Of a DNA stretch of 64,000 bases, positions 31,361 through 49,631 are shown piece after piece. The translations under genes were made by a program, and so were the position numbers. Position 1 is the first letter of the stretch, and every line of letters begins with the position of its first letter. The notes beneath the pieces are model-generated. The model saw nothing but the letters and a program-made list of their open reading frames with translations, was not told where the DNA came from and did not search any database. The DNA comes from Tsukamurella sp. 1534 (GTDB lineage: Bacteria; Actinomycetota; Actinomycetes; Mycobacteriales; Mycobacteriaceae), in assembly GCF_000312385.1 (NCBI RefSeq), contig NZ_HE997626.1, positions 1,332,572-1,396,571 of the forward strand, given 5' to 3'.

Positions 31361-31889
31361 CGGGAGTCCTTCCATTGCAGTTGTGCCCGGTTCAGGGTAC
31401 GCGTCGCGCGCGTGGGGAAGAAGTCCGTCCGGCGGGAAGTGACGCGTCCGTGCTGGTAGGGGCTCCGCGGGGTGACCGGCGGGTAACAACGAGGGGTGGT
31501 TTTGCCTCCGCGCAGGGGAACGATTCACTCGCGACACGCCCGAATGTCGGATCGATGCGACACGCTGAGCAATGTTGATCCACAGCCGGTGCACGAATCC
31601 CGAACGCTCTGACCTGTGCGTTCTCCGATGTCCGATGTTTGTTTCCACAGGTTTTCCCCATCGGTCCACACGGGCGTCCCCACGATGACCGCGCTCAGTG
31701 CACACAGATTGCACAGGTTCATCCACAGGGGGGCTTTGCGATCGGGTCGACTGCGCCTAGCGTTCACGTGCGTCGGTCGTGAGCTATGCGTGGGATCTCG
31801 AACATGTCAGCCCCTGCCGATAGACCTGAGAACGGATGGACGGTTCCGTGCGGTATCCACCGCGCGGCGCGAGTGTGAGGTGGTACGCG
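31361..31889. promoter_or_regulatory. Non-coding region upstream of dnaB with DnaA-box-like repeats
   Basis: No convincing gene is seen. Between 31576 and 31727 four TCCACA-cored 9-mers lie on the + strand: TGATCCACA (31576-31584), GTTTCCACA (31641-31649), CGGTCCACA (31662-31670) and TCATCCACA (31719-31727). The first and last differ by one base from TTATCCACA, the others by two or more. The stretch is also less GC-rich than its surroundings. It may be a DnaA-responsive dnaB promoter. Confidence 0.5.
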
Positions 31890-33293
31890 GTGTCGGTCAC
31901 GGACGAGCAGGAGTACACGCCGGGGCCCGCGGACCGCGCGCCCTCCGCGGACGCTCCGCCCGCCGAGGACTTCGGCCGCCAGCCCCCGCAGGACGTCGCC
32001 GCGGAGCAGTCCGTGCTCGGCGCCATGATGCTCTCCAAGGACGCGATCGCCGACGTGCTCGAGGTGCTGACCCCCGGCGACTTCTACCGGCCGGCGCACC
32101 AGTCGGTGTACGACGCGATCCTCGACCTCTACGGCGCCGGTGAGCCGGCGGACGCCGTCACCGTGTCCGCCACTCTGGACCGCAAGGGCGAGCTCAAGCG
32201 CGTCGGCGGCGCCCCGTACCTGCACACTCTGATCTCCACGGTGCCCACCGCGGCCAACGCCGGCTTCTACGCCGAGATCGTGGCGGAGAAGGCCATCCTG
32301 CGGCGCCTCGTGGAGGCGGGAACGCGGATCGTCCAGTTCGGGTACTCGGGGTCCGACGGTGCGGACGTCGCCGAGGTGGTCGACCGCGCGCAGGCGGCCG
32401 TCTACGACGTCACCGAGCGCAAGGCGTCCGAGGACTACGTGGTGCTGGAGGAGCTGCTCCAGCCGACCATGGACGAGATCGACGCGATCGCCTCGCGCGG
32501 CGGCGTCAGCATGGGCGTGCCCACCGGCTTCACGGACTTCGACGCGCTCACCAACGGCCTGCACGCCGGGCAGATGATCATCATCGCCGGGCGTCCCGGC
32601 GCCGGTAAGTCCACCGTCGCGCTGGACATCCTGCGGTCCTGTGCCATCACCAACGGCATGGCCGGCGCCCTGTTCAGCCTCGAGATGGGCAAGACCGAGG
32701 TCGTCATGCGCCTGCTGTCCGCCGAGGCACGGATCAAGCTCGCGGACATGCGTTCCGGCACGATGTCCGACGACGACTGGACCCGCCTGGCCCGCCGCAT
32801 GTCGGAGGTGTCCGAGGCGCCGCTGTACATCGACGATTCGCCCAACCTCACGATGATGGAGATCCGCGCCAAGGCCCGCCGCCTCAAGCAGCGGCACGAT
32901 CTCAAGCTGATCGTGATCGACTACCTGCAGCTGATGACGTCCGGCAAGAAGGTCGAGTCCCGCCAGCAGGAGGTCTCGGAGTTCTCCCGCCAGCTCAAGC
33001 TGCTGGCCAAGGAGCTCGAGGTGCCGCTGATCGCCGTCGCGCAGCTCAACCGTGGCCCCGAGCAGCGCACCGACAAGAAGCCCCAGGTGGCCGACCTCCG
33101 TGAGTCCGGCTCGCTGGAGCAGGACGCCGACATGGTGGTCCTCGTGCACCGCCCCGACGCCTACGAGCGCGACGATCCCCGTGCGGGCGAGGCCGACTTC
33201 ATCCTCGGCAAGCACCGTGCCGGCCCCACCGGCACGGTCACCGTGGCCCACCAGCTGCACTACTCCCGCTTCGTGGACATGGCCAAGGGCTGA
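31890..33293 (+). CDS. dnaB: Replicative DNA helicase DnaB
   Basis: Hexameric 5'-3' helicase of the replication fork. From the GTG at 31890 the product has 467 residues. The N-terminal domain (PPQDVAAEQSVLGAMMLSKD) is followed by the RecA-like domain with GRPGAGKSTVALD (Walker A), VIDYLQLM (Walker B), AQLNRGPE and RADLRESGSLEQDAD-like motif 4. No intein interrupts it, unlike in M. tuberculosis. The GTG is preferred because GAGGTGG lies about 8 nt upstream; an in-frame ATG at 31836 would add 18 residues. The transposon end begins about 8 bp after its stop. Confidence 0.96.
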   Translation: MSVTDEQEYTPGPADRAPSADAPPAEDFGRQPPQDVAAEQSVLGAMMLSKDAIADVLEVLTPGDFYRPAHQSVYDAILDLYGAGEPADAVTVSATLDRKGELKRVGGAPYLHTLISTVPTAANAGFYAEIVAEKAILRRLVEAGTRIVQFGYSGSDGADVAEVVDRAQAAVYDVTERKASEDYVVLEELLQPTMDEIDAIASRGGVSMGVPTGFTDFDALTNGLHAGQMIIIAGRPGAGKSTVALDILRSCAITNGMAGALFSLEMGKTEVVMRLLSAEARIKLADMRSGTMSDDDWTRLARRMSEVSEAPLYIDDSPNLTMMEIRAKARRLKQRHDLKLIVIDYLQLMTSGKKVESRQQEVSEFSRQLKLLAKELEVPLIAVAQLNRGPEQRTDKKPQVADLRESGSLEQDADMVVLVHRPDAYERDDPRAGEADFILGKHRAGPTGTVTVAHQLHYSRFVDMAKG

Positions 33294-33301
33294 CGCCCCT
33301 C

Positions 33302-33370
33302 TGTAGGGTCCCAGATTCCGTGGCGGAATCCCAAGCTACGTGGCGGACAGTTGGCGGATCCGCCAACTGT
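33302..33370. repeat. Putative Tn7-like right-end sequence: TnsB-site-like repeats and a 24-bp palindrome
   Basis: Starting at TGTAGGGTCCC just after dnaB, TGGCGGA occurs at 33321, 33341 and 33352. A perfect 24-bp palindrome occupies 33347-33370 (left arm ACAGTTGGCGGA), giving the same core in the opposite orientation. A further inverted repeat, GATTCCG-TGG-CGGAATC, lies at 33314-33330. Closely spaced copies of a short core between a TGT terminus and tnsA are expected of a Tn7-type right end. The matching left end was not found. Confidence 0.6.
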
Positions 33371-33428
33371 TTGGGACACGCCGGGGCACGTCCCCGCATC
33401 TGAGGGCGGAAGTGGCACCGTCAAGACC

Positions 33429-34163
33429 ATGTCGCCCGGCAGCTCCGCGGGGACCGCGGTGGAAGTATCGTTCCGCCGCGGTGAGGACCTCTGTGAGCGG
33501 ACCGTGGAGTGGAAGTCGGCCGCAATGGAGGACCTTCGCGAGGCAGCGCCGTGGCGCACATTTCGCTGGTATCGAGGGCAGAAACACTACTCGGGGTGGT
33601 ACTGGTCGAGCACTACCCGCGATCTGGTGATCTATGAGTCCCGCCTGGAGCTCGCTAACCTGATGCTCGCAGACTTCGACGATCGGGTTCGGGGCATCGT
33701 GGCCCAGCCTTTCCTTCTCGCGACTGAGGCCGATGGTGTCCTGCGGAGGCACGTTCCGGACTTCCTACTCGATACTGATTCCGGCCCGGTCGTCGTTGAC
33801 GTAAAGCCTGCTCGACGGCTTGATAATGATGATGTTGCAAGGGTTTTGAACTTGACTCGGGATGTCGTCGAGGCCAAGGGGTGGCGATACGAGGTCGCCA
33901 CCGAGCCGCCGCCGCGGAGGGCCGCGAATGTCAGATTCCTCGCTGGCTATCGGCGCGAGAGTGCAATCGTGCCTGACCATTGCGAGGCGGTTCAGGCGGT
34001 CGCTCAGGTGGGATTGACGATTGGTGCTCTCATCGATCGGATGCCAGATCGTCCTGACGCGAGCGTGCGAGCGGCGGTGCTGCACTTGATATGGCGGCGT
34101 CGGCTGCACGTCGACATTGACGCCGCAATCACTAGTCGCACTCAGATTTCGAGGGTCTTGTGA
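33429..34163 (+). CDS. tnsA: TnsA-like transposase endonuclease
   Basis: Cuts the 5' strands at the transposon ends with TnsB to allow cut-and-paste movement. From the ATG at 33429 it has 244 residues. The restriction-like core is visible as YESRLELANLMLADFD, IVAQPFLL, HVPDFLLDTDSG and VVVDVKPARR, giving the E...PD...DxK acid-Lys constellation at about residues 64, 110 and 123. The C-terminal part resembles the TnsA domain that contacts TnsC. The frame is open upstream to a TTG inside the 24-bp palindrome, so the start is uncertain. It overlaps tnsB by 4 nt (GTGA). Confidence 0.85.
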   Translation: MSPGSSAGTAVEVSFRRGEDLCERTVEWKSAAMEDLREAAPWRTFRWYRGQKHYSGWYWSSTTRDLVIYESRLELANLMLADFDDRVRGIVAQPFLLATEADGVLRRHVPDFLLDTDSGPVVVDVKPARRLDNDDVARVLNLTRDVVEAKGWRYEVATEPPPRRAANVRFLAGYRRESAIVPDHCEAVQAVAQVGLTIGALIDRMPDRPDASVRAAVLHLIWRRRLHVDIDAAITSRTQISRVL

Positions 34164-36307
34164 GTGGCGTTGAGCGGGTTGAGGTTGGCGGACGGTACAT
34201 GTACGACGGCGAGGCGTTCGAGATCGTGGAGCTCGCCACGGCTAAGGGCGTCGTCGATGTGCTGGGGAAAAGCGCTGCAGGGCAGTACATGCGAGTTGGC
34301 CTCGCGGAGTTGCTGTCTTCGGTCCGGGGTCGGGTCCTCCCGACCGGCCCTGGCGTTTCGAGCACTGATGCAACCGAGCCTGCAGGCGTCATCTTCGGTG
34401 AGTTGTCCGCGGCAGAGCTTCAGAAGGTGACGGAACGCGCGGGGCACGTACGCGAGATTCTTACCGGGTACAGATCTGGCAGCGCGGAGACTGCGAGCAA
34501 GGGGGAGCCCAGGCCGGAGTTTTCCGGCGACCGCCCGCTCACTGACCGCTACGCAGCGAAGGCGCGCGAACTGGGCGTCGGCTTGCGATCTGTGGAGCGG
34601 TGGGTGTCCAAGTTCCGCACTGAAGGGCCCGCAGGCCTGGTAGACGCGCGACGTACGAGAGAGGCGGAGCCCTTCCCGTCTGTCGATCGGCGGTGGTTAG
34701 ACACAGCTGTCGAAGTCATGGTTGAGCACGCCACCGAGTCGAAACCGTCCCGCACGATGGTGATGGCACGCGCGGAGGCACGGGTCTTGGCGCGATTCGG
34801 AGAAGGGGTCGTCGCCATCCCGTCTCGGACAAATGCTTTCCGCGTTCTCGAGTATCTGGAACAGCGCTATCCCACATTTCGACTGTCTGCCAAGCGAAAT
34901 CGCGACATCGCTGAGCGGCCAGAAGGCGTGTACGGCAAGCTCCGTCCAACTCGGCCTGGCGAGTACATGCTGATGGACACAACCAGGCTCGATGTCTTCG
35001 GGCTCGATCCTCTGACGCTGCGATGGGTGCAGGTCGAACTGACCGTCGCGATGGACTGGTACACCCGCTGCATCACCGGGTTGCGATTGACCCCGGTTTC
35101 CACGAAATCGGTTGATGTAGCGACCGTGATGTACGAGGTTTTCAGCCCACGTCCGGCCGGCGCGGACTGGCCGGAATACGCGGTGTGGCCAGCTCACGGA
35201 GTACCGCGGTCGGTACTTGTAGATGTCACCGCGGAGCGGCCAGCGGATGCGGCCGCTGGACCAGCTATTGTCCCTGAGACACTGGTCGTGGACCATGGCA
35301 AGGTCTACCTCTCGAACCACGTGATGAGTGTGTGCCAGCGCTTCGGGATTTCGGTGCAGCCAGCTCGGCTCCGAACCGGCCGCGACAAAGGGCCAGTTGA
35401 GCGGTTCTTTCGTACTATTCGTGAAGATCTCCTCCAGGCCTTGCCGGGGTACAAGGGACCTGATGTCCACTCCCGCGGCGAGGATCCTGAGGGCGGAGCG
35501 TTCTTCTACATCGACGAGCTCGAAAGCATCATCCGCGAGTGGGTTGCGCAGGTCTACCACCACCGCCAGCATTCGAGCCTGCTCGACCCGCGAGTTCCGG
35601 GCTTACGTATGTCGCCCGCCGCGATGTTCGAGCACGGTGTTTCTCGCGCCGGATACATTGAGGCGCCTCGCGATCCGGACCTGGCATTCGAGTTCCTCAA
35701 GCCGGTATGGCGGAAAATTCTTCACTACGGTGTCGAGATCGGAGGCCGCCGCTACAACGGAGACGGGCTCAACGGCTACCGTAACCTCGCGAGCCGGTTC
35801 ACCGGCGAGGCCAAGGGACGATGGCCGATCCACTTCGATCCCGACGACATCACCAAGGTGTACTTCCGGCGCCCAGATGAGCGGACCTGGCACACATTGG
35901 TGTGGGAGCACGCACCGTCGATCGATATGCCGTTCAGCGAGGATGCACTGCTCTACGCAAGGAAGCTAGCAGCATCGAAGTACCGATTCCCCAACGACCG
36001 CCTTGCGGTAGCTGACTTGTTGGAGCGGTGGAACATCGGCCTGGGCTCGACCCGAGTGGAACGGCGCATTGCATTGAGAATGTCACGCGAGACCGAACTG
36101 TCGCAGCGACCGCAGGGCGAAGCGCGTGTGGATCGACTGCCGTCGGTCGCCCGCGTGCTCGCTCCCGACCAGGACGAAAGCGATGTGCAAGCAGAGGACA
36201 CCGCGATTGATCGCGGTCTCGACTACGCCGGCGAGGAAGGTGACGACGATCGATTCGACCAGGAAAACATCGATGACTTCTACTCCGACGCGCTGGAGGA
36301 CGTATGA
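34160..36307 (+). CDS. tnsB: TnsB-like DDE transposase
   Basis: Binds the transposon ends and catalyses 3'-strand cleavage and joining. The 715-residue protein has an N-terminal Mu/Tn7-type DNA-binding region with HTH (KARELGVGLRSVERWVSKF) and an RNase H-like core. The catalytic triad can be placed at Asp ~272 (YMLMDTTRLDVF), Asp ~378 (TLVVDHGKVYLSN) and Glu ~414 (KGPVERFFRTIRED), followed by the usual YHHRQHSSL region. The C-terminal ~60 residues are acidic and probably interact with TnsC. The start and stop both overlap neighbouring genes by 4 nt. All catalytic residues are intact. Confidence 0.93.
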   Translation: MSGVERVEVGGRYMYDGEAFEIVELATAKGVVDVLGKSAAGQYMRVGLAELLSSVRGRVLPTGPGVSSTDATEPAGVIFGELSAAELQKVTERAGHVREILTGYRSGSAETASKGEPRPEFSGDRPLTDRYAAKARELGVGLRSVERWVSKFRTEGPAGLVDARRTREAEPFPSVDRRWLDTAVEVMVEHATESKPSRTMVMARAEARVLARFGEGVVAIPSRTNAFRVLEYLEQRYPTFRLSAKRNRDIAERPEGVYGKLRPTRPGEYMLMDTTRLDVFGLDPLTLRWVQVELTVAMDWYTRCITGLRLTPVSTKSVDVATVMYEVFSPRPAGADWPEYAVWPAHGVPRSVLVDVTAERPADAAAGPAIVPETLVVDHGKVYLSNHVMSVCQRFGISVQPARLRTGRDKGPVERFFRTIREDLLQALPGYKGPDVHSRGEDPEGGAFFYIDELESIIREWVAQVYHHRQHSSLLDPRVPGLRMSPAAMFEHGVSRAGYIEAPRDPDLAFEFLKPVWRKILHYGVEIGGRRYNGDGLNGYRNLASRFTGEAKGRWPIHFDPDDITKVYFRRPDERTWHTLVWEHAPSIDMPFSEDALLYARKLAASKYRFPNDRLAVADLLERWNIGLGSTRVERRIALRMSRETELSQRPQGEARVDRLPSVARVLAPDQDESDVQAEDTAIDRGLDYAGEEGDDDRFDQENIDDFYSDALEDV

Positions 36308-37407
36308 CCGAAACCGCCGCGACACTCGACAATCTGACCCTCGCCCGAAAGGAAGGGTGGCAGAAGTTCGTCAACACCCCCGCACGTGTTCCACCGGAGG
36401 CGTTGAACCGCGATGAACTCGACAGACTGACCGACAAGGAGCGCACCGACTACGACCGTGAGCGCCGCGAGTGGCACGCGAACCTCGGGCCCCTCAAGAC
36501 CAGACAGCTGGTCGAGGTGCACGAAAACCTCTGGGATGTCATCGACTCCAACGCCCAGGACGGAGACAAACCGAAAGGCGCCGTTGCGATCGACGCAGTA
36601 CCCGGACTAGGGAAGACCACCGCGGTATTGAGCTTCGCCCGCGCGTTCCACCGCCGCGAAGTAGCCGAGAACGGCACTACGACCGAGGAAGGTCATGAAC
36701 GGTGGCCGGTGTGCCGGGTGGGACTGACCGGCAACACTGGCCTACGCGAGTTCAACCGGGCGATGCTCGCGTTCTACGCCCACCCAGGCGGCCGCCGCGG
36801 CAACGCCGCCGACTTCGCCCACCGAGCCCTGGACTGCGTGCTGGCATGCGAAACGAAGATCCTCATCGTCGATGATCTGCACTTCCTGCGGCTGCAGTCC
36901 ACCTCCGGTGTCGAGGTCAGCAACCACTTCAAGTACATCGCCAACGAGTTCCCGTTGACGGTGATCTTCGCTGGCGTCGGTTTGGAGGCGCGGGGACTGT
37001 TCTCCGAGGGCAGTAGTGACCGAGATGCTCTTCTCGCGCAGACCGGCCGGCGTACAACGCGGCTGACAATGGATCCTTTCGGTGTCACCAATGATGCTGG
37101 GCGCCGGGCATGGCGTCAGACGCTCAAGGCGATCGAGCAGCGGGTGGTTCTGGCCGAAAAGTATCCGGGCATGATCGCCGACGATCTCTCTGACTACCTG
37201 TATGCCCGGTGTACCGGCCAGATCGGCTCACTGATGACCCTGATCAACCGGGGATGTCAGCGCGCGGTCCGGACTGGGTATGAGCGCCTCGACGAGGAAC
37301 TGCTCGATCGGGTCAAGATCGACGAGGCATCGGAGAAGGCTCGCGAAGAACTGCGCCTGGCATTCGACAACGGCTGCCTGAGAACTCGCATCGGCAGGGC
37401 CGGATGA
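36304..37407 (+). CDS. tnsC: TnsC-like AAA+ ATPase
   Basis: Transposition regulator that links target-site proteins to the transposase. The 367-residue protein has Walker A in AVPGLGKTTAVLSFA (residue ~100) and Walker B in ILIVDDLHFLRLQ (residue ~187). Downstream are FAGVGLEARGLF (sensor-like Asn replaced) and the TniB/TnsC-type lid with YARCTGQIGSLMTLINRG. Motifs are intact, so it is probably active. ATGA overlaps link it to tnsB and tnsD. Confidence 0.93.
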   Translation: MTETAATLDNLTLARKEGWQKFVNTPARVPPEALNRDELDRLTDKERTDYDRERREWHANLGPLKTRQLVEVHENLWDVIDSNAQDGDKPKGAVAIDAVPGLGKTTAVLSFARAFHRREVAENGTTTEEGHERWPVCRVGLTGNTGLREFNRAMLAFYAHPGGRRGNAADFAHRALDCVLACETKILIVDDLHFLRLQSTSGVEVSNHFKYIANEFPLTVIFAGVGLEARGLFSEGSSDRDALLAQTGRRTTRLTMDPFGVTNDAGRRAWRQTLKAIEQRVVLAEKYPGMIADDLSDYLYARCTGQIGSLMTLINRGCQRAVRTGYERLDEELLDRVKIDEASEKAREELRLAFDNGCLRTRIGRAG

Positions 37408-39998
37408 CAGTGCCACGTTCGCTTCCCTTCAGGGTGGACCCGGTGCCGGGCGAAGCGATCGATTCCTGGCTCGAAGCGATCGCCTTCCGCGCCGACTCAG
37501 CGTGGGGAGACCTTCTCGACGCAGTCGACATACCTGCGCCTGCAGGTCTTGGGTACCCGCCCTGGACGATCGCACTCAGCGAGGCCGAAGTAGCCAGCCT
37601 GTGTGCCGCCACGGGCAGCGACGTCGAATTTTCGATGATGACCCTCACCCGGTTCGACGGGACCGCGGTGCGCATCGACTCGCAGTCGCGGAGTTTGCGC
37701 CGCGAAGTGGCATGGACCCGCCGCACCGGATCCCGCTTCTGCCCGCACTGCCTCCGAAGCAACGGCGGCCGATGGAAGCTCGAATGGCGACTCGGCTGGG
37801 CGTTTGCCTGCACCGACCATCGTTGTTTGCTGTCCGACGAATGCCCTCGCTGCCATAGAATTCCACGCCGCCGCCCGCTCCCGGGCCACTGCACCCCGAT
37901 CCCCGGCCGATGTGCATCGCCGGCGCAGGAAGGAGGCATTGGACGGGAGGCCCGACGGTGCGGCGCCGATCTCACGGCTGCCGAGGTCCTCGACCTTCCT
38001 GGTGCGCACCCCGCTCTTCGGGCACAGGCCCTCATCGATCGAATCATCGACGACGGAGTCGTGCGGTTCGGGGTCTACGCGCGCCTTCCACAGCCTGCGG
38101 CTTCTGTGCTTGCCGACATTCGCGCCATCGGCGGCCGAGTACTGTCCTACGCCACCGACGAAGAGCTCTTAGCGCGAGTGGGACCCGAACTGGCGGTTGA
38201 GTACCGGGCAGTCGATGAACAAGGTGGTGCACGATCCGGACAAGTCCGACAGAGCCGCACGAAGCCGGCCCTCGAAGCGCCAGCGAGAGCCGTCACAGCT
38301 GCGATTGGCGTCAGTGCCGCGATCGACGTTCTGCACTGCTCGGACCTCGCAGCCGCAGCTGATCGCCTGCGATGGTTAGTGACCTCGGCCCGGGAGACAG
38401 GCCTCAGTGTTCAACCGACGAACATCGGCTGGGGGACGCGAATCTCACCAATCCTGACCGGTGTCCAGCTCGCCGCGCTATCCCCGATGCTCGACCCGTC
38501 CGACCAACTTCGCTACCGCACTCACTCCGACCTTCCCACCTTGGTGACCAGTGGGCGCGCAGAGCTACTAGCGCGTCACACGCCGACGCAATTTTGGGCC
38601 GGAATCAGTTTGCCCTTCACGGTCCCGGCGGCGAGGCGCACAATGATGCGCCTGGCATTGTCTGCGGCCTTACAGTTGGTGGGCACTCGGTTGAATCTGA
38701 CGGCCGCTGGTCAGCAGGTCGGAGGTCACCTGGCTGGCCATGCCCTATCCCGATTCCTACAGATTCTGGAGTCCGATCAACACTGGAGCGATGTGTGCGC
38801 GGGTCTGACACGCGTTGCCGATTACGTTGTCGAGCGCGGCGTACCGATCGACTATCAGCGCCGACGGGCACTCGATTGCACCGGTTTGCTTCCGGACGAT
38901 GAGTGGAGGCAGATCTGCCACCGCACCGGAACGCCGTCACAGGGCGGCTCCGCCCGGGCGGCTGTTGTTCGGGCGTTTCTTCGCGAGGAGCTCACAGGCG
39001 TCCCCACGGTTGACGGGTCCGCAGACTTGCTCGCTAAGATCGCCGCGTTTCCCCGCGATCTGACACCCGGCCTTCGGGACGAGCTGATCAACCACGCACG
39101 GGTGTTCTTGGACGCCGCGGGCATCGATGAGGAACCAATTGCCTGGGAGCCGCCAATTGAGCTCCTCGCTGGTCTCGACCTCCCTGGCCCGCGACCAGGA
39201 CTGATCGACCGTGATCGCCTTCGAAAGCTCATCCGAGAACGCGACCTTCCCATCGGCGCCGCCGCCCGCGACCTCGGCACCACTGGCGAGGCGGTTCGCC
39301 TTGAGCTGATCGTCAATCCCCTCCCTGTCGATACCGGCCGCCGGAAGTACGCCAGCGCTCGAACGCAGCTCCCCCCGGAGGCTTTGACCCAGCTCTATCA
39401 TCACGATCGCCTCACCTTGCGACAGATCGCTAACCGTATTGGAGTCAGTCGTCAGGTGATCCGTCGACTCCTCACCGAATACGAGATCCCGACGATCCCC
39501 GCTACCGAGCGCGCGAAGATCATCATCGACCGCGACTGGCTCTACCAGCAATATGTCACCAACAGCAGGGCCCTCCCTGACATAGCCCGAGAACTGGGCA
39601 TGAGCACGGCGAACCTGGCTCGGTGGGCGAACAAACACGAGATTCCGATGAGACCCCGCGGCGGACCCAGTCACACCGCGGCCCTCGACGCCGCGGCCGC
39701 CGCGAAAACGGTGCCGCCGATCTTGCGCACAGCTGTTGCGGCCCAGGGCGGGCGCGACCGACTGGAACGGGCGAAAGCAGCATCGCGATTCCCCACGCTG
39801 ACCGAGGCTGCACACGCGTTAGGAACCAGCCAGGCAACCCTCACGAACCAGTTTCTCCGGCTCGAACGCGAGACCGGCGGAGCTCTGTTCGACCGTGCCG
39901 AGCGCAATCGCCCTATGACCCTGACCGCCCACGGACGGAGGGTGATCGACGCCATTCGAAAGCTGGACGGAACTGCTAGCGAGTCTCCCGGTGGGTAA
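37404..39998 (+). CDS. tnsD: TnsD/TniQ-like target-selection protein with multiple C-terminal HTH units
   Basis: Predicted site-specific DNA-binding selector of the Tn7-like element. The 864-residue protein begins with a TniQ domain containing the zinc motif FCPHC...CTDHRCLLSDECPRC (residues ~112-150). The C-terminal third carries at least four helix-turn-helix-like units: near 605 (PIGAAARDLGTTGEAV), 665 (TLRQIANRIGVSRQVIRRLL), 715 (ALPDIARELGMSTANLARWA) and 798 (TLTEAAHALGTSQATLTNQF, LysR-like, then GGALFDRAERN). This is longer than Tn7 TnsD (508 residues) and fits recognition of an extended site, probably within dnaB. The last gene of the operon. Confidence 0.88.
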   Translation: MTVPRSLPFRVDPVPGEAIDSWLEAIAFRADSAWGDLLDAVDIPAPAGLGYPPWTIALSEAEVASLCAATGSDVEFSMMTLTRFDGTAVRIDSQSRSLRREVAWTRRTGSRFCPHCLRSNGGRWKLEWRLGWAFACTDHRCLLSDECPRCHRIPRRRPLPGHCTPIPGRCASPAQEGGIGREARRCGADLTAAEVLDLPGAHPALRAQALIDRIIDDGVVRFGVYARLPQPAASVLADIRAIGGRVLSYATDEELLARVGPELAVEYRAVDEQGGARSGQVRQSRTKPALEAPARAVTAAIGVSAAIDVLHCSDLAAAADRLRWLVTSARETGLSVQPTNIGWGTRISPILTGVQLAALSPMLDPSDQLRYRTHSDLPTLVTSGRAELLARHTPTQFWAGISLPFTVPAARRTMMRLALSAALQLVGTRLNLTAAGQQVGGHLAGHALSRFLQILESDQHWSDVCAGLTRVADYVVERGVPIDYQRRRALDCTGLLPDDEWRQICHRTGTPSQGGSARAAVVRAFLREELTGVPTVDGSADLLAKIAAFPRDLTPGLRDELINHARVFLDAAGIDEEPIAWEPPIELLAGLDLPGPRPGLIDRDRLRKLIRERDLPIGAAARDLGTTGEAVRLELIVNPLPVDTGRRKYASARTQLPPEALTQLYHHDRLTLRQIANRIGVSRQVIRRLLTEYEIPTIPATERAKIIIDRDWLYQQYVTNSRALPDIARELGMSTANLARWANKHEIPMRPRGGPSHTAALDAAAAAKTVPPILRTAVAAQGGRDRLERAKAASRFPTLTEAAHALGTSQATLTNQFLRLERETGGALFDRAERNRPMTLTAHGRRVIDAIRKLDGTASESPGG

Positions 39999-40377
39999 AA
40001 CGGTGCACCAAGTTCCTGAACCTGGCCTCTCAGGTGGTGAAGACGTGGTTCGGAATGCCCTAGCCTCCACGCACGTCGTCGCGTCGGTAGGGTCAGGAGC
40101 GAACCGCGATTCCACGTCCCGGAACCTGTCATGGTGAGGCTCTAGAATAGAGACAGCTAAGCCCGGCTCGTTTGCCGACGAACCGGGCTCAGCTGAACAA
40201 CCGAATCACCACTCCGAGGGTTCGCCCCTCGATACCGTGACCGTTGCGAATGTCTTTGGATGACGCCTCCGATGGTAGACGGTGTGCGCGGGTTCGCCAA
40301 ACACCGGAACGCTGGTGTGGGCGAGCGATGCGGACCTTGGCGTGGTGGCTCATCCACACTGCCTTGAGGAGGCACCG
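39999..40377. other. Non-coding gap between tnsD and the TGT-like gene
   Basis: No convincing gene is seen on either strand. It holds the hairpin listed at 40155-40194 and, at its end, the GAGGAGG ribosome-binding site of the next gene. No copy of the TGGCGGA transposon-end repeats was found here, so the element does not end after tnsD. Confidence 0.6.
40155..40194 (+). terminator. Hairpin terminator candidate downstream of tnsD
   Basis: AGCTAAGCCCGG-TCGT and ACGA-CCGGGCTCAGCT form a stem of about 17 bp with two mismatches and a 6-nt loop, 157 bp after the tnsD stop. Confidence 0.6.
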
Positions 40378-41535
40378 TTGACCAACGACAGTCGCGACTC
40401 TGATCGCACAACCGATACCACCAGCACTGAACGGGCTGGAGGTGCCCGGCCCATCCAGGTCGGGCAGCACCGGCTCGAGGGCATGTCGACGGACCTGTTC
40501 GTTCAGGTCCCGACGACCTTGATCGACCCGACTCGCGCGCTGATCGCGTCGGAAGGTGTCGGCGCGGTCTACTCCGTGCCGTGGCAGTCCCGGACCCACC
40601 GCTCCGCGGTGGCGAGGACCGCGGCGGATCAGACCCGCAAGAAGTGCCCCGAAGCAGCGTTGCTGCTCGACGCGAACCTCTACAGCGGCCGGCAGCGGAA
40701 GGTGGCGACGGCGGAGCCGACCCGCGACTGGATCACCGTGCAACGTAGCGCGGGCCTGACGTGGGCATTGACCGATTCCGGCTATGTGGCCAAGGGCGAC
40801 ACCGCTGGGCTGCGGACCACCCTGAAGACGGCGGCCCGCTTCGGTGGACAGGTGATTGCGGCGCTGCCGATCGCGAGCTGGTGGCTTTCGCACGCCGCCG
40901 ATTCGCTCCGGTCTGAGATCAACGCGCACGGCATCCCCGTGGCGTTGATGGTCGAAGACACCGACGACCCGTTCGACCGGACCAACGTCGTGACCGGGCT
41001 GGTGCACGTCCTCACCGCAGATGTCCCGGTGCTGCTCCTGCGCAGTGACACGGCGGGGTTGGGGGCGCTGGCGTACGGCGCCGCAGGCGCGGCGATGGGG
41101 TCATCGACCACCTACCGGCACATCTACCCCGACATCGGCGGGGGCGGCACCAGCGGGTCGGTGTCGTTCATCCTCCCGGAGCTTCTCGCGTACACGTCGC
41201 TGACCGCGTTCGAGCGGCATTACCTCAAGGACAAGTCCCACGCCGCGTGGTGCTGCGACTGCGCACTCTGCGGTGGACGGGACCTGACCTGGATCCGCAC
41301 GGCTGACATCCCGAAGGCAGCAGCGTTCTCGCATTCGGTCTCCGCGGTCGCGATGCTCGGTCGCGGTTTGGCCACCGCTATCGCCGCCCACAACGGCCCG
41401 CAGGCGTGGACGGCGATGTGCGAGGCCGCCCACGAGAGCAACATCGAGATCGAGAAGCTCACCGGCGGGGACTGGAAGCGCAAACGCGCCCTGTCCGCCT
41501 GGATCGGCGCTACGCCGGAGCCGGCTGCGGCGTGA
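40378..41535 (+). CDS. Divergent tRNA-guanine transglycosylase (TGT)-like protein
   Basis: A 385-residue protein from a TTG with GAGGAGG 5 nt upstream. It reads like a TIM barrel: LLLDANLYSG, WALTDSGYVAKGD, VIAALPIASWW, VALMVEDTDDPF and VPVLLLRSD. TDSG matches the TGT substrate-binding TDSGGF motif. CDCALC followed ~20 residues later by His resembles the TGT zinc site (CxCxxC...H), and MLGRGLATAIAAHN mimics the conserved C-terminal helix. The usual nucleophile segment (FDCVxPTR) appears as MGSSTTYR, without Asp. The fold assignment is an inference by eye. It could belong to a DpdA-like or other base-exchange/binding system, or be a catalytically inactive relative. It overlaps the convergent next gene by 26 nt. 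Confidence 0.55.
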   Translation: MTNDSRDSDRTTDTTSTERAGGARPIQVGQHRLEGMSTDLFVQVPTTLIDPTRALIASEGVGAVYSVPWQSRTHRSAVARTAADQTRKKCPEAALLLDANLYSGRQRKVATAEPTRDWITVQRSAGLTWALTDSGYVAKGDTAGLRTTLKTAARFGGQVIAALPIASWWLSHAADSLRSEINAHGIPVALMVEDTDDPFDRTNVVTGLVHVLTADVPVLLLRSDTAGLGALAYGAAGAAMGSSTTYRHIYPDIGGGGTSGSVSFILPELLAYTSLTAFERHYLKDKSHAAWCCDCALCGGRDLTWIRTADIPKAAAFSHSVSAVAMLGRGLATAIAAHNGPQAWTAMCEAAHESNIEIEKLTGGDWKRKRALSAWIGATPEPAAA

Positions 41536-42133
41536 TCGGCACCCCTGTCGCGAGGGCGTGAGCGAATAGCCGCTCCTCCCAGTACCGCACCGCGACGATC
41601 CGCGGAGGATCGGCAACCTTCGATCCCCGCACCAGTAGTTCCTCGCCGGCGTGAGAGGTATGCACCACGCTCACGTCGGCGAGGTCCGCCGCCGTCAAGC
41701 TCAGCGCCGTGGGCCGCCGCTCGGTCAGCACCACGGTCTCGCCGAACCCGCGAAGCTCACTGGCGACATACAGGGCCCTCTTCCACTGCCCGGTGGCGAC
41801 GAACCCGACGATGCTCAACGGCGCCGCCGGCGGCGCCCCCGCGCCCTCCGCCGGGCACATCTCCCACAGCTCGAGGACCTGCGCGTCGAGCATCGGTCCC
41901 GCCCCGGACGACATCCGTTCGGCGACGGTCGACGACCATCGGACCACCGGATACCCGCGAAGCCCCGACAGTTCGGTCCGCGGCAACACCGACACCGAGC
42001 TATCGAGGACGAGCTCCGCAGCCGCGACCACGGCCGCGTCGACCAGATCCGCAGACCGGACGACAGGGACCTCGAACAGCGGGATCTGACCCGCCTCTGC
42101 GCGCTCCTGCCGGGTACGTCGCCGCGCCGTCAC
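41510..42133 (-). CDS. Hypothetical protein, partner of the AbrB-like gene
   Basis: A 207-residue soluble protein with a basic N-terminus (TARRRTRQERAEAGQ) and mixed alpha/beta content; no known family is recognised. A central segment (SIVGFVATGQWKRALYVASEL then VVLTERRP) alternates strand and helix like a Rossmann-type fold. Its GTG start overlaps the stop of the double-AbrB gene (GTGA), so the two are co-translated. Its 3' end overlaps the convergent TGT-like gene, so the three may form one functional module. Confidence 0.6.
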   Translation of the reverse strand: MTARRRTRQERAEAGQIPLFEVPVVRSADLVDAAVVAAAELVLDSSVSVLPRTELSGLRGYPVVRWSSTVAERMSSGAGPMLDAQVLELWEMCPAEGAGAPPAAPLSIVGFVATGQWKRALYVASELRGFGETVVLTERRPTALSLTAADLADVSVVHTSHAGEELLVRGSKVADPPRIVAVRYWEERLFAHALATGVPITPQPAPA

Positions 42134-42501
42134 TGGTCTTCCTGTTCCACGGGGGTGGGCTCCGGGGCGATGACCCGTGACGCATCGAACAGGTGAATGC
42201 GGTCCTCCAGGGCCAGGAACGCCACGACGCTCCCTATGTCCAGGCCGGCCGAGTCCAGGACCGCCGCCGGCAACGCGATCTGTCGTGACGTCCGCAGCCG
42301 CCGCGGGCGATCCGGGTTACTTCGTACGGACGGCTTCTTTCCGCGCGGGCCGCGAGTGGGAACGATCTCGACGATCCTCTGGCCGGCGACGACACCGATC
42401 CGGACCCACGAAGGCTGCCGCACTCCGGCCACCTTCGCCACCTTCGCCGGGATGGTGATCCGGCGGAAGCTGTCGATCGTCCGGGGACCCGTGGGAAGCA
42501 T
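42130..42501 (-). CDS. Tandem AbrB/SpoVT-type DNA-binding protein
   Basis: About 123 residues from the ATG at 42501. Two swapped-hairpin-like units are visible: SFRRITIPAKVAKVAGV with WVRIGVVAGQRIVEIVPT, and SRQIALPAAVLDSAGLDIGS with VVAFLALEDRIHLF. The linker is basic (GKKPSVRSNPDRPRRLR). Both units have the AbrB pattern R-x-I-x-(I/L)-P. A GTG at 42537 would add 12 residues but would run over the inverted repeat at 42502-42519, a likely operator. It probably regulates itself and the downstream gene. Confidence 0.65.
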   Translation of the reverse strand: MLPTGPRTIDSFRRITIPAKVAKVAGVRQPSWVRIGVVAGQRIVEIVPTRGPRGKKPSVRSNPDRPRRLRTSRQIALPAAVLDSAGLDIGSVVAFLALEDRIHLFDASRVIAPEPTPVEQEDQ

Positions 42502-42519
42502 ACTGCTGATTTTAGCAGT
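42502..42519. promoter_or_regulatory. Inverted repeat at the start of the AbrB-like gene
   Basis: ACTGCT-N6-AGCAGT is a perfect repeat that directly abuts the preferred ATG of the double-AbrB gene. It is a candidate autoregulatory operator. Confidence 0.5.
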
Positions 42520-42585
42520 CAAAGACCGAACAGACACTGGTACTGTGGATTACAGCGCATGATCGTCGTGCCGACCGCTGTCCCG

Positions 42586-42717
42586 CTAAGGCACGGAAAC
42601 GCCGTCGGAAGAGACGGCATCGAGGGCTTCGAGGACGGCGCGGAGGAACTCGGTCGCGGTGAGGGGGATGCCGCGTTCGCGGAGCTGTTGCTCTAGCTGC
42701 TGCTCGATGTGGTCCAC
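42586..42717 (-). CDS. Possible small protein (43 residues)
   Basis: A GTG opens a 43-codon frame with good composition for coding: an amphipathic Gln/Glu-rich helix (HIEQQLEQQLRERGIPL) followed by TATEFLRAVLEALDAV. In-frame coding-like sequence continues upstream for about 20 codons to a stop, with no better start. No ribosome-binding site is obvious. It could be a remnant of a larger gene. Confidence 0.35.
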   Translation of the reverse strand: MDHIEQQLEQQLRERGIPLTATEFLRAVLEALDAVSSDGVSVP

Positions 42718-42806
42718 GTCTGTCGATCCTGCCGCAGGCGATACCGGCGATGCAGTGCCCGAGAGCCTCGCGACGGTGTCGTGCAGCCGTTACCTGCGCG
42801 TTCGCT

Positions 42807-43160
42807 CTAGCAGCACGTGGCCAGGACGGCCCGGAGCGCTTCGAGGGAGTCGGGTTCGGCGCGGTAGAAGACGTTGATCCCCCGCCGCTCGGAGCTGACG
42901 AGGCCGGCCTTCTTGAGCTGGCTCAGGTGGTGACTGACGGTCGCCGACGACAGGCCCACGGTGTCGGCGAGATCGCCCGTGCTGACGTCGCCTGGACGTG
43001 CGGCCATGAGGAGCGAGATCAGCTGGATCCGGGCCGGGTCGGCGAGCGCCTTGAGGCGCAGGGCGAGCTCAAGCGCCGCCGCCTCGTCCATCACGCCGGC
43101 AGCGAGCGGAGCGCAGCAGATCGGGGCGCTGATGTCGACGACGGGGAGCGTCTTGGGCAT
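42807..43160 (-). CDS. arsR: ArsR/SmtB family metalloid-responsive repressor
   Basis: A 117-residue winged-helix repressor (ALADPARIQLISLL, LADTVGLSSATVSHHLSQLKKAGLV). A Cys pair at residues 15-16 (APICCAP) matches the position of the N-terminal Cys pair known for corynebacterial As(III) sensors. A second pair ends the protein (ATCC). The recognition helix has no Cys. It is divergent from the ArsI/CadI-like gene with a palindrome between them, and probably represses both. Confidence 0.88.
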   Translation of the reverse strand: MPKTLPVVDISAPICCAPLAAGVMDEAAALELALRLKALADPARIQLISLLMAARPGDVSTGDLADTVGLSSATVSHHLSQLKKAGLVSSERRGINVFYRAEPDSLEALRAVLATCC

Positions 43161-43180
43161 GACTCCAATCTACCCACTCG

Positions 43181-43194
43181 TTGACATATGTCAA
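43181..43194. promoter_or_regulatory. Palindrome between arsR and arsI, candidate ArsR operator
   Basis: TTGACATATGTCAA is a perfect 14-bp palindrome 20 bp upstream of arsR, and TTGACA could itself be a -35 element. Confidence 0.6.
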
Positions 43195-43256
43195 AACGTG
43201 GTCTAGAACTGAACCCGCACACCAATTAGATGTATGTCGAAGCCTCGGAGGTTCTC

Positions 43257-43724
43257 ATGTCCCGCGTCCAGCTCGCCCTCAACGTCGACGACCTCGATCA
43301 GTCGATCGCGTTCTACACCAAGCTGTTCGGCACCGGACCGGCGAAGGTCAAGCCCGGCTACGCCAACTTCGCCGTCGCCGACCCGGCGCTCAAGCTGGTC
43401 CTGCTGGAGAACCCCGGCCAGGGCGGCAGCATCAACCACCTCGGCGTCGAGGTCGACTCCAGCGAGAAGGTGCACGCCGAGATCGCCCGCCTGACCGAGG
43501 AGCAGCTGTTCACCGAGGAGGAGATCGGCGCCACCTGTTGCTTCGCCACCCAGGACAAGGTCTGGGTCACCGCCCCCGACGCCGAACGCTGGGAGGTCTA
43601 CACCGTCCTGGCTGACGCCGAGACCTTCAACGGAGAGCCCGTTGCCTCGAGTACTGCCGCCGACGCCGACGCCGACGCGACGCCGGCGGCGTGCTGCACC
43701 CCTACCGCGGCGAACTGCTGCTGA
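43257..43724 (+). CDS. arsI: ArsI/CadI-type vicinal-oxygen-chelate protein (C-As lyase or cadmium-induced protein)
   Basis: A 155-residue protein nearly identical in wording to mycobacterial CadI and to ArsI lyases: MSRVQLALNVDDLDQSIAFY, KPGYANFAVADPALKLVL, NHLGVEVDSS, the vicinal Cys pair in GATCCFATQDKVWVTAPD and WEVYTVLAD. ArsI uses Fe(II) and O2 to break the C-As bond of methyl- and aryl-arsenicals, with the Cys pair binding substrate. The C-terminus adds AACCTP and NCC, extra metalloid-binding Cys. GGAGG lies 6 nt before the ATG. The ars context favours ArsI. Confidence 0.85.
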   Translation: MSRVQLALNVDDLDQSIAFYTKLFGTGPAKVKPGYANFAVADPALKLVLLENPGQGGSINHLGVEVDSSEKVHAEIARLTEEQLFTEEEIGATCCFATQDKVWVTAPDAERWEVYTVLADAETFNGEPVASSTAADADADATPAACCTPTAANCC

Positions 43725-44060
43725 CCGACGCAGCCACGGAGTAGTCGCCCGAGAACCGAGCAGACCGACGACGGCGCCCTTCGAGTTGCGTCGCCGATCG
43801 CAACTACAACCGGTAGTGCTGATGCGACACGCTCGACACAAGTGCTTGTGCTCCGCAAAGGTGTCAGGGTGCTCGAATAAGATCGAACACAGGTGCAGAA
43901 GGCGCCGGGACCCCTCGGCCGCTTGAAGCGGCGAAGAGGTCCCGGGTCCGATCTGTGAGAGGATTCGTACCCTAATCTCCGTCGCTTCCCGTCACAACTC
44001 GACGCGCTACCAGCTTGTCCCGGTCTGCCCCTGGACAAGACGCGCAGAAGAGGCTCAACG
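43725..44060. other. Non-coding gap with a hairpin
   Basis: No gene is supported. A strong complex hairpin lies at about 43906-43944 (CGGGACC-CCTC paired with GAGG-TCCCG, with an inner CCGCTT/AAGCGG stem); it may terminate transcription from arsI, although it is 180 bp downstream. Confidence 0.5.
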
Positions 44061-44306
44061 ATGAGCAATCAGAATCGACGCAGCGTCGTTCCGAACCCCG
44101 GCGGTGGCTGGGATGTCACGAAGCCCGGTGGCAGTCGTGCCAGTGCCCACACCGACACCCAGGTGGAGGCCATCTCCCGCGCTCGGGAGATCGTCACCAA
44201 CGCCGGGGGAGGTGAGGTGCAGATCCACGGGCGCGACGGTCGGATCCGCGATTCCGACACCATCGCCCCTGGCAACGACCCGTTTCCGCCGCGCGACAAG
44301 CGGTAG
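44061..44306 (+). CDS. DUF2188 family small protein
   Basis: An 81-residue protein with the DUF2188 pattern: VVPNPGGGWDVTKPGGSRAS, HTDTQVEAISRAREI and EVQIHGRDGRIRDSDTI, ending in NDPFPPRDKR. The family is a widespread small alpha/beta protein of unknown function. It stands alone between a hairpin and a perfect 15-bp-stem terminator, and does not appear to belong to the ars operons on either side. Confidence 0.85.
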   Translation: MSNQNRRSVVPNPGGGWDVTKPGGSRASAHTDTQVEAISRAREIVTNAGGGEVQIHGRDGRIRDSDTIAPGNDPFPPRDKR

Positions 44307-44325
44307 CCACGGCAGCTGATACGCA

Positions 44326-44360
44326 CGAGGCGCCTCTCCGGAATTCGGAGAGGCGCCTCG
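44326..44360 (+). terminator. Terminator after the DUF2188 gene
   Basis: A perfect 15-bp stem (CGAGGCGCCTCTCCG and its complement) with a 5-nt loop, 20 bp after the stop. Confidence 0.85.
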
Positions 44361-44416
44361 TCGTGGAGCCGCGGCTCGGCCTTGCCATCCGAATCGATAT
44401 CTGTCAATATCGATGT

Positions 44417-44791
44417 GTGTCGAATTCGATTCCGTTGACCGACGTGACCGTGCGGTGTTCACCGCTGGTCCGCGAGCCCCTGTCGGAGGGGCAGTCCGTC
44501 GACCTCGCGGCGGTGTTCAAGGCCCTGGCTGACCCGATCCGCCTGCGCCTGTTCAGCCTGATCGCCAGCCACGAGGGCGGCGAGGCCTGCGTCTGCGACA
44601 TCTCCCCGGCGGTCGACGTCTCGCAACCCACGATCTCGCACCACCTCAAGGTCCTCAAGACTGCCGGCCTGCTCGAGTCCGAGCGCCGCGCCTCGTGGGT
44701 GTACTACCGCGTCATCCCCGAAGTCCTGTCCTCGCTCGCCGGGATCCTGCAGTCCGGCGAACCCGCCACCTCGTTGGAGGTTCTCTCGTGA
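44417..44791 (+). CDS. arsR: ArsR family repressor of the acr3-arsC operon
   Basis: A 124-residue repressor. EACVCDIS at about residues 55-62 carries the CxC As(III) motif of classical ArsR (ELCVCDL), followed by the recognition helix VDVSQPTISHHLKVLKTAGL. The GTG at 44417 has no ribosome-binding site but lies in a repeat of TATCGAT sequences (44395-44415) that may be the operator, so translation may be leaderless. It overlaps acr3 by 4 nt (GTGA), making an arsR-acr3-arsC-arsC order. Confidence 0.88.
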   Translation: MSNSIPLTDVTVRCSPLVREPLSEGQSVDLAAVFKALADPIRLRLFSLIASHEGGEACVCDISPAVDVSQPTISHHLKVLKTAGLLESERRASWVYYRVIPEVLSSLAGILQSGEPATSLEVLS

Positions 44792-45903
44792 CCAGCCCCG
44801 CCCCGACCACCGAGCATCAGCCGGTCGTCGGCAAGCTCTCCACCCTCGACCGGTTCCTACCGGTGTGGATCGGCGTCGCGATGGTCGCCGGACTGCTGCT
44901 CGGCCGGATGATCCCGGGCCTGAACACCGCGCTGGAGAAGATCCAGGTCGACGGCGTCTCCCTGCCGATCGCACTCGGGCTGCTGATCATGATGTACCCG
45001 GTGCTGGCGAAGGTCCGCTACGACCGCCTCGACACCGTCACCGGCGACCGCAAGCTCCTCCTGGGCTCGCTGCTGCTGAACTGGGTCCTCGGACCGGCGC
45101 TGATGTTCGCCCTCGCGTGGATCTTCCTGCCCGACCTGCCCGAATACCGGACCGGGCTGATCCTCGTCGGCCTGGCCCGGTGCATCGCGATGGTGATCAT
45201 CTGGAACGACCTCGCCTGCGGCGACCGGGAGGCCGCCGCGGTCCTCGTGGCGCTGAACTCGGTGTTCCAGGTGATCATGTGCGCCGTCCTCGGCTGGTTC
45301 TACCTCTCGATCCTGCCCGGCTGGCTCGGCCTCGAACAGACCACCATCAGCACCTCGCCGTGGCAGATCGCCAAGTCCGTGCTGATCTTCCTGGGCATCC
45401 CGCTGCTCGCCGGCTACCTCTCCCGCCGGATCGGGGAGAAGACCAAGGGCCGCGACTGGTACGAGGCGAAGTTCCTCCCGCGCATCGGACCGTGGGCCCT
45501 GTACGGGCTGCTGTTCACCATCGTCATCCTCTTCGCCCTGCAGGGCGAGCAGATCACCTCCCGCCCCTGGGACGTCGCCCGCATCGCCCTGCCGCTGCTG
45601 GCGTACTTCGCCGTGATGTGGGGTGGTGGGTACCTCCTCGGCGCCGCCATGGGCCTGGGCTACGAGCGCACCACCACCCTCGCGTTCACCGCCGCGGGCA
45701 ACAACTTCGAGCTCGCCATCGCCGTCGCGATCGCCACCTACGGCGCCACCTCCGGGCAGGCCCTGGCCGGGGTGGTCGGACCGCTCATCGAGGTACCCGT
45801 CCTGGTGGCCCTGGTCTATGTCTCGCTGGCCCTGCGCAAGCGCTTCCCCCTCACCACATCGTCTACCGCCGCTAGCGCGGATCCGTCCAGGAGTGTGAAC
45901 TGA
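44788..45903 (+). CDS. acr3: Arsenite efflux permease Acr3
   Basis: Exports As(OH)3 from the cytosol using the proton gradient. The 371-residue protein has ten predicted helices, of normal length for Acr3. [18 protein letters not shown] includes the essential Cys of helix 4, and [17 protein letters not shown] marks helix 9. GGAGG lies 7 nt before the GTG. It is translationally coupled to arsR upstream and arsC downstream (TGATG). Confidence 0.94.
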
Positions 45904-46328
45904 TGCCCGACAACGAAACCCGCACGCCGAGCGTGTTGTTCGTGTGCGTGAAGAACGGCGGCAAGTCCCAGATGGCCGCCGGACTGATGCGCAAGACCGC
46001 CGGCGATGCCGTCGAGGTCCACTCGGCCGGCACCAAGCCCGGAAGCGCGGTCAACGGCCTGTCCGCCGAATCCCTGGCCGAGATCGGCGTCGACATCACC
46101 GGCGAGACCCCCAAGCCCATCGACCCCGAGCTGCTCGCCCGGGTGGACCTGGTGGTCACGCTCGGCCGCGAAGCCGTCGTCGACACCCCGGACGGCGTCG
46201 CGCTGGTCAACTGGGACACCGACGAGCCGTCGGAGCGGGGCATCGACGGGATCGAACGGATGCGCCTCGTGCGCGACGACATCGCCGCCCGCGTCACCGC
46301 GCTGGCAGCCGAACTCACCACCCGGTAG
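45903..46328 (+). CDS. arsC: ArsC-type arsenate reductase/LMW-phosphatase-fold protein with a CX5K loop
   Basis: A 141-residue LMW-PTPase-fold protein. The active-site loop reads [14 protein letters not shown], so the Arg of the CX5R signature is Lys. [12 protein letters not shown] and [10 protein letters not shown] follow. Related actinobacterial single-Cys ArsC proteins with VKNGGKSQ loops reduce arsenate with mycothiol and mycoredoxin, and the family assignment rests on that resemblance. It overlaps acr3 by one base. It feeds arsenite to the pump. Confidence 0.85.
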
Positions 46329-46370
46329 CGCCCCAGCAGGCCGGGAAGCCCGAGAAGCGGGAGAAGTCGG

Positions 46371-47036
46371 ATGAACGCCAACGCCTCTACCGAGTCGGCC
46401 GGAACACCAGAACTGCTGATGCCCCAGGCCCTGCTGGCGCGGACCGCGGAGCGGCTCGCCGCCCAGTACCGCGGGATCGTCTCCGAGCAGACAGTCGAAC
46501 GGGTCGTCTTCGAGTCCTACACCGCGCTGCGGCGCACCGCCCGCATCCACACCCACCTGGTGACTCTCGCCGGCCGGTTCGCCGCCGAGCGCCTCTCCGC
46601 CCTGGCGCAGTCGACGGGTGCGAGCACCAAGACCGTGCCCGAGGTGCTGTTCATCTGCGTCCACAACGCGGGCCGCTCGCAGATGGCCGCCGCGCTCCTG
46701 ACGCACCACGCCGCCGGGGCGGTACACGTGCGCTCCGCCGGATCGCTTCCTGCCGCGGTGATCAACCCGATCGTCGAGCAGGCCATGACCGAGGTCGGAC
46801 TCGACCTGGCCGCCGAGTTCCCCAAGCCTCTCACCGACGACGCGGTCGCGGCCGCGGACGTCGTGATCTCCATGGGCTGCGGCGACGCCTGCCCGGTCTA
46901 CCCGGGCAAGCGGTACCTGGACTGGCAGGTCGCCGACCCCGACAACCACCCCATCGAGACCGTCCGCCTGATCCGCGACGACCTCGACCGCCGCGTCAAA
47001 GCCCTCCTCACCGAGCTCCATCCCGCCACCACCTGA
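46371..47036 (+). CDS. arsC: ArsC-type arsenate reductase with N-terminal three-helix domain
   Basis: A 221-residue protein. The first ~80 residues form a helical domain (LLARTAERLAAQYRGIVSEQ, VERVVFESYTAL) common in actinobacterial ArsC. The LMW-PTPase domain follows, with a standard CX5R loop in FICVHNAGRSQMAAALL and VISMGCGDACPVYPGKRY carrying two more Cys. It lies 42 bp after the first arsC with GGGAGAAG before the ATG. Two reductases of different loop type in one operon may use different thiols. Confidence 0.88.
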   Translation: MNANASTESAGTPELLMPQALLARTAERLAAQYRGIVSEQTVERVVFESYTALRRTARIHTHLVTLAGRFAAERLSALAQSTGASTKTVPEVLFICVHNAGRSQMAAALLTHHAAGAVHVRSAGSLPAAVINPIVEQAMTEVGLDLAAEFPKPLTDDAVAAADVVISMGCGDACPVYPGKRYLDWQVADPDNHPIETVRLIRDDLDRRVKALLTELHPATT

Positions 47037-47141
47037 CCCAACCCGTGATCGACCTGCTCGACACTCCTGATCGCAGGCTGTCGGCACCGCTTGTGCCTGC
47101 CACACCTCATTCGCCTGTTCTTGGAAGGGAACCGACACCCC

Positions 47142-48563: not shown

Positions 48564-49087
48564 CCACCAGCGACCACGACACCCCCGGGCCCGCCGCATC
48601 GGCGGCGGCCCCGGCGATCGTCGCGATGCGGCCCGAGCACGGGCCACAGGTCCTCGCGATCTACCAAGCCGGCATGGACACCGGCAACGCCACCTTCGAA
48701 ACCACCGCACCCAGCTGGACGGACTTCGACCAACGACACCTACCCGAGCACCGATTCGTCGCTCTCACCCCGACCGGGCAGGTCACCGGGTGGGTCGCCG
48801 CGGCGCCCGTCTCGGGGCGCTGCGTCTACGCCGGCGTCATCGAGCACAGCATCTACGTCCACCCCGACCACACCGGCCACCGTGTCGGGGCAACATTGCT
48901 GCAGGCCCTCATCGTCTCCGCCGACGCCGCCGGGGTGTGGACCATCCAGACCGGGATCTTCCCCGAGAACCACGCCAGCCTCGCCCTGCACCGGCGCGCC
49001 GGATTCCGCACCGTCGGCACCCGCGAACGCATCGGCCAACGCGACGGCCGCTGGCGCGACGTCGTCCTCATCGAACGACGCAGCTGA
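48560..49087 (+). CDS. arsN: GNAT acetyltransferase, phosphinothricin/arsinothricin type (ArsN-like)
   Basis: A 175-residue GNAT protein. AIYQAGMDTGNATFETTAPS, EHSIYVHPDHTGHRVGATLL (acetyl-CoA loop) and GIFPENHASLALHRRAGFRT match the phosphinothricin N-acetyltransferase group. Members inside ars operons (ArsN1) acetylate the arsenical antibiotic arsinothricin; that role is inferred from family and position. The GTG overlaps the preceding stop (GTGA), so it belongs to the ars operon. Confidence 0.82.
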   Translation: MTTSDHDTPGPAASAAAPAIVAMRPEHGPQVLAIYQAGMDTGNATFETTAPSWTDFDQRHLPEHRFVALTPTGQVTGWVAAAPVSGRCVYAGVIEHSIYVHPDHTGHRVGATLLQALIVSADAAGVWTIQTGIFPENHASLALHRRAGFRTVGTRERIGQRDGRWRDVVLIERRS

Positions 49088-49109
49088 CTGCCGCCTACAC
49101 CTACCGGAC

Positions 49110-49502: not shown

Positions 49503-49631
49503 GGGACTCCTCGTATAGGGGTATAGGGTCAGGCTCACTGTCCCGAACGCTAGGCGGAGTTGATTTGGGGCGCCGCTGCCGGGTGCGCCCATGATTTTGG
49601 GCCTGGGGTTCGCGTGCCGTCCTTGGCGGAT

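Follow-up and report, generated by a model that had tools for sequence, protein, structure and literature searches.

A Tn7-like metal-resistance transposon of Tsukamurella and its relatives: the 3' coding end of dnaB as a very likely attachment site

The tns operon and its element

In the 64,000-nucleotide stretch of Tsukamurella sp. 1534 chromosomal DNA that was analysed here (the window), dnaB is followed by tnsA, tnsB, tnsC and tnsD, which form one operon with a 4-bp overlap at each junction (Table 1). The D-D-E residues are readable in the translation of TnsB, and the Walker motifs in that of TnsC. An rve profile search of the genome gave no match because the TnsB of the element scores below the cut-off. 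The first-pass annotation, made from sequence alone, had described an overlapping operon of tnsA, tnsB, tnsC and a tnsD/tniQ gene reading away from dnaB, as well as a TGT-started, repeat-containing sequence about 8 bp past the dnaB stop. Both claims held, the former by domain matches and the 4-bp overlaps, the latter by the position of the TGT (33302) and the TnsB-site-like repeats that follow it. The span that it gave, 33294-39998, covers the transposition genes only and is corrected here to the whole element.

Table 1. Features at the dnaB-tns locus, in window numbering (extended coordinates continue this numbering past 64000)
Feature	Position	Strand	Evidence or remark
dnaB, replicative DNA helicase; 3' end is the proposed attachment site	31836..33293	+	Pfam DnaB_C E 1.4e-100, DnaB N E 1.4e-34
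Conserved coding end of dnaB (TCNCGNTT...ACATGGC...stop); stretch likely read by TnsD	33257..33293	+	Position-wise conservation over 38 insertions and codon-based ruler; inferred, no biochemical data
Target-site duplication CCCTC, first copy	33297..33301		Second copy at extended 80773-80777 (L001:16773-16777)
Right end: 11-bp terminal inverted repeat TGTAGGGTCCC and three TnsB-site-like repeats	33302..33428	+	Repeats start at 33309+, 33329+ and 33376-
tnsA, endonuclease subunit	33429..34163	+	PF08722 (Tn7_TnsA-like_N) E 2.4e-7; D111, D124 and K126 invariant in family alignment
tnsB, DDE transposase	34160..36307	+	rve and HTH matches; relatives in 23 loci
tnsC, AAA+ regulator	36304..37407	+	AAA_22 E 9.4e-10, TniB E 4.6e-8
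tnsD, TniQ-domain target selector; C-terminal helix-turn-helix array, the last one LysR-like	37404..39998	+	TniQ E 5e-19, HTH_1 E 1.8e-8
Cargo within the window: arsenic set (acr3, arsC, ArsI/CadI, ArsN1-like), P-type metal ATPases, CadD-type transporter	40282..64000		Element runs on to extended 80772

The right, tnsA-proximal end opens with TGT 8 bp past the dnaB stop (sequence TGTAGGGTCCCAG). The left end is TGTAGGGTCCC on the reverse strand and closes the element at extended 80772 (L001:16772), 16.8 kb outside the window; it was found neither by searching the window only nor through simple repeats in 124 kb. It was located by predicting its sequence from the right end, as GGGACCCTACA followed by CCCTC, and this string has a single occurrence in the 124 kb. 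The whole element is thus 47,471 bp long, with an 11-bp terminal inverted repeat and a 5-bp duplication, CCCTC. The pattern TCCCA-N6/7-TGGC(G/A) has six matches in the 124 kb, five of them at the two element ends. These end repeats are read as TnsB sites, the binding of TnsB being inferred. The element meets the criteria of a Tn7-like transposon: TnsA, TnsB and TnsC together, a TniQ/TnsD selector, mirrored TGT ends with TnsB-site-like arrays, and a 5-bp duplication.

The cargo encodes an ACR3 arsenite efflux protein, an arsenate-reductase-like protein, ArsI/CadI and an ArsN1-like acetyltransferase, together with cadmium-type and copper-type P-type ATPases, a CadD-type transporter, a multicopper oxidase and redox proteins. 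The element is a metal-resistance transposon of the Tn7 kind, with arsenic, cadmium and copper genes. No CRISPR-like short direct repeats were found in the cargo, and no Cas proteins in partial Pfam/NCBIfam scans of it, which did not cover every ORF. No match to the TnsE_C profile was found, in a search without a working positive control (no control genome matched either).

Insertions downstream of dnaB in other genomes

In total, 38 right ends of this family were gathered at dnaB from Tsukamurella, mycobacteria, Streptomyces and other Actinomycetes. Beyond Tsukamurella, dnaB is followed by such a right end in Mycobacterium, Mycolicibacillus, several Streptomyces, metagenome-assembled genomes, and genomes G123 and G195; this is also the case in G510, although the TnsD of that genome is only 33% identical. 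When ATGGC-N16..22-TGTAGGKTYYC was searched in 395 class-wide genomes, 12 of the 15 matches fell at the 3' end of a dnaB gene; with the pattern reversed, there were 11 matches altogether. Relatives of TnsA occur in 53 genomes, and of 30 loci examined, eight, including the window element, are at dnaB; therefore, most TnsA relatives lie elsewhere. In phages, nothing was found beyond distant TnsB relatives.

Exact 5-bp duplications were read in seven further elements, six chromosomal (G404 CCCGG, G410 TGTTG, G405 ACCGC, G166 GCGGC, G510 TCTTG, G195 GATTT) and one on a Mycobacterium aubagnense plasmid (GATGA). G402 shows no target duplication, and in G870 four of the five bases match. Two side observations were made at these loci. 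The dnaB genes at L038, L042, L045, L092, L101, L107, L142, G314 and G407 look intein-split, with DnaB matches in at least two separated pieces. In the mycobacterial elements L091 and L092, the interval between the right end and tnsA holds two small genes that by eye look XRE-like and ribbon-helix-helix-like.

Distances were measured on 27 insertions at dnaB that had been gathered with no filter on distance. Their right ends lie 6-14 bp from the dnaB stop (sd 2.19) and 22-29 nt from a conserved Met/Leu-Ala codon close to the 3' end of the gene (mean 24.0, sd 1.48). Where the dnaB tail is one codon shorter, the stop distance is 11-14 instead of mostly 7-10 (p=0.0008), whereas the codon distance is unchanged (p=0.30); the rows are related by descent, and the p-value is a guide only. 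All 38 insertions give the same result in one orientation, some of them having been found through a distance-limited pattern. On contig 39 of G195, the reading frame of a second dnaB runs into the right end, 26 nt from the codon. Since the codon distance is better fixed than the stop distance, TnsD probably reads the coding sequence. A reading of the dnaB coding sequence, like that of Tn7 at glmS, is likely; which protein does the reading is not proven. In many hosts, the insertions lie at one distance and in one orientation relative to the end of a conserved gene, as expected of a fixed-site element.

Of 16 Tsukamurella genomes, ten have an element in the dnaB flank and six do not. Tsukamurella species whose DnaB differs by 3-8% share Tns proteins with 99.6-100% identity; in the window-type elements of G400, G402 and G408, TnsB, TnsC and TnsD are 99.9-100% identical to those of the window element, and DnaB differs. 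The spacers differ among these near-identical elements, and so do the duplications where both ends are readable (CCCTC in the window element, CCCGG in G404, TGTTG in G410). Near-identical elements with different duplications, together with six empty genomes, therefore point to repeated insertion and not to inheritance, and the pattern in Tsukamurella is one of recent horizontal spread with independent insertions. Past the left ends of G402, G404 and G410, the DNA shows synteny with the region that lies downstream of dnaB in species free of the element. For the flanks of the window element, no exact empty site was matched, and immediate downstream synteny was seen only for other species; the DNA 3' of dnaB varies among Tsukamurella species. 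As a separate observation, tnsB of T. tyrosinosolvens is disrupted by the insertion of an IS21 element (L100 6459-9288). The same record, named 'plasmid 14', was considered as a plasmid insertion and rejected, since it carries rpsF-ssb-rpsR-dnaB, a chromosomal gene order; it was not counted.

Two elements lie behind a plasmid-encoded dnaB, on M. alvei pJCM12272 and on a 181-kb plasmid of M. aubagnense. On the M. aubagnense plasmid, a matching left end closes the element, which takes up about 58.1 kb of the record; on the M. alvei plasmid, no left end was found in the 67 kb read. Contig 39 of G195, whose sole plasmid match is an M. avium plasmid dnaB, is likely a third such insertion. Nine other plasmid dnaB genes were read, and no right end was found on any of them.

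Elements also occur in tandem. In T. asaccharolytica, two different dnaB-type elements lie beyond dnaB, with TCGT(T) between them and TCGTT past the outer end (L035 9030-9150; G399 contigs 14 and 21). Past the left end in G195 comes GATT-TGTAGGG, and past one of those in G510 comes TCT-TGTAGG; in both, the first one or two bases of the adjoining element seem to form part of the duplicated 5 bp. Most simply, a newcomer would have gone in between dnaB and the element already there, this succession being inferred. Such dnaB-adjacent arrays look like natural records of successive insertions.

TnsD and its targets

TnsD, the product of the sole TniQ gene in the genome, has 864 aa, with an N-terminal TniQ domain, a long helical part, helix-turn-helix domains near 610-755 and a LysR-like winged helix at 797-845. 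A fold search with its structure model (mean pLDDT 72.8) returned LysR domains and weak CAST TniQ matches, and nothing on target DNA. The C-terminal LysR-like domain was considered as the determinant of dnaB targeting and rejected, since L102 and L106, which are not at dnaB, have it and L092, which is at dnaB, does not. The target is therefore set by something other than this domain.

At least three changes of the dnaB target label are required by the TnsD tree; target and phylogeny are therefore not one-to-one, and a single origin of dnaB targeting is unsupported. One TnsD branch, on large Rhodococcus plasmids, belongs to elements 17 bp past a cutinase-family gene, apparently another fixed site (L102, L110, L137, L138, upstream of tnsA); its TnsD is similar over the full length, with 43% identity. 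In another plasmid branch, the elements follow NlpC/P60 or lytic transglycosylase genes, at 23-26 bp in two cases (L143, L145, L154, upstream of tnsA). Since other TnsD branches follow other plasmid genes, each branch apparently recognises the end of a gene of its own. One Streptomyces plasmid element lies away from dnaB, and its TnsD is close to the dnaB-type TnsDs.

The first-pass annotation had inferred that the element uses the dnaB 3' end as its safe site, and this is supported. In close homologues, the tnsA-proximal end stays just past dnaB within the distances given above, exact duplications accompany the window element and the seven others, and sister genomes with empty dnaB sites exist. 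Homologues at unrelated loci, which it had named as refuting evidence, do occur on the Rhodococcus and Streptomyces plasmids. Since these are mostly other TnsD branches with their own sites, the claim is limited to part of the family and is not refuted.

Interpretation and significance

The element is bounded by two mirrored ends and a 5-bp duplication, and it lies immediately past dnaB in a position and orientation that recur in many actinobacteria. The best explanation, held with high confidence, is that a cut-and-paste transposon of the Tn7 kind finds its attachment site in the 3' coding end of dnaB through its TnsD; there is no experiment, and binding by TnsD is inferred from the codon ruler. 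In the proposed scheme, TnsD would bind the conserved last codons of dnaB and recruit TnsC and then TnsAB, and insertion would take place about 24 nt downstream of the conserved codon, leaving the essential dnaB intact. Some plasmids carry their own dnaB; therefore, this mode of recognition can bring the element onto plasmids as well, and plasmid-borne copies could carry it to new hosts. A bolder reading takes dnaB as a two-compartment target, a single TnsD serving chromosomes as safe home and plasmids as vehicle, so that one route would do the work that other Tn7-like elements divide between TnsD and TnsE or guide-RNA pathways. This remains tentative, and the balance lies slightly against it.

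One alternative is a single ancestral insertion past dnaB that was inherited vertically and is now a resident island, in which case the clustering would be uninformative on targeting. The same place in many species of one genus would agree with this, but species with almost identical Tns proteins carry different duplications, six sister genomes have a free dnaB site, and tandem pairs and plasmid dnaB insertions occur; vertical inheritance can be all but ruled out. The dnaB 3' flank may instead be a merely permissive, neutral spot, targeting being loose and selection leaving only these insertions. The variable DNA 3' of dnaB among Tsukamurella species is what would be expected of a tolerant region. 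However, 38 right ends in one orientation fall within an 8-nt span from the codon irrespective of the position of the stop, and plasmid copies of dnaB are also hit in different surroundings, which makes this account most improbable.

It is also conceivable that targeting of dnaB is RNA-guided or works through another selector, with TnsD as a mere adaptor, as some Tn7-like elements use guide RNAs at fixed sites (PMC11406308). Against this stand the lack of CRISPR-like short direct repeats in the cargo, the size of TnsD with its several C-terminal helix-turn-helix domains, as in direct selectors, and the presence of only one TniQ gene in the genome, and there is very little likelihood that it is correct.

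In Tn7, the coding sequence of glmS is read by TnsD (PMC2918618). The dnaB element shares with Tn7 (TnsABCD, attTn7 at glmS) the order and roles of TnsA, TnsB, TnsC and TnsD, the tnsA-proximal end beside the target gene, the 5-bp duplication, the fixed orientation and the fixed distance downstream of a conserved coding end. It differs in its target, in its ends (TGTAGG...), and in a larger TnsD with a LysR-like domain at its end. Other fixed-site Tn7-like elements use parE, tRNA genes, comM with TnsF, or guaC, yciA, ffs and rsmJ with guide RNA (PMC11406308, PMC10293859), and like them the dnaB element has one safe chromosomal site per element group; dnaB is not named as a target in the main texts of these two papers. 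The dnaB element probably belongs to the same large group as an uncharacterised actinobacterial Tn7-like clade (Benler et al. 2021, PMC8649781), for which the main text does not give a dnaB site (supplementary tables were outside the scope). No mention of dnaB as a Tn7-family site was found in the literature searched, including the main texts of two large surveys and a 2024 review, with supplementary tables and subscription papers outside the scope.

Within the literature searched, dnaB is apparently a previously unlisted homing site, offered by chromosomes and plasmids alike. The few homing sites listed for the Tn7 family gain an essential, conserved replication gene, and they do so in a large actinobacterial clade of which no member is reported to have been characterised by experiment. 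For mycobacteria and Streptomyces, the finding would indicate a safe landing site of natural origin, and the existence of the same gene on plasmids offers a simple account of how these elements move between hosts.
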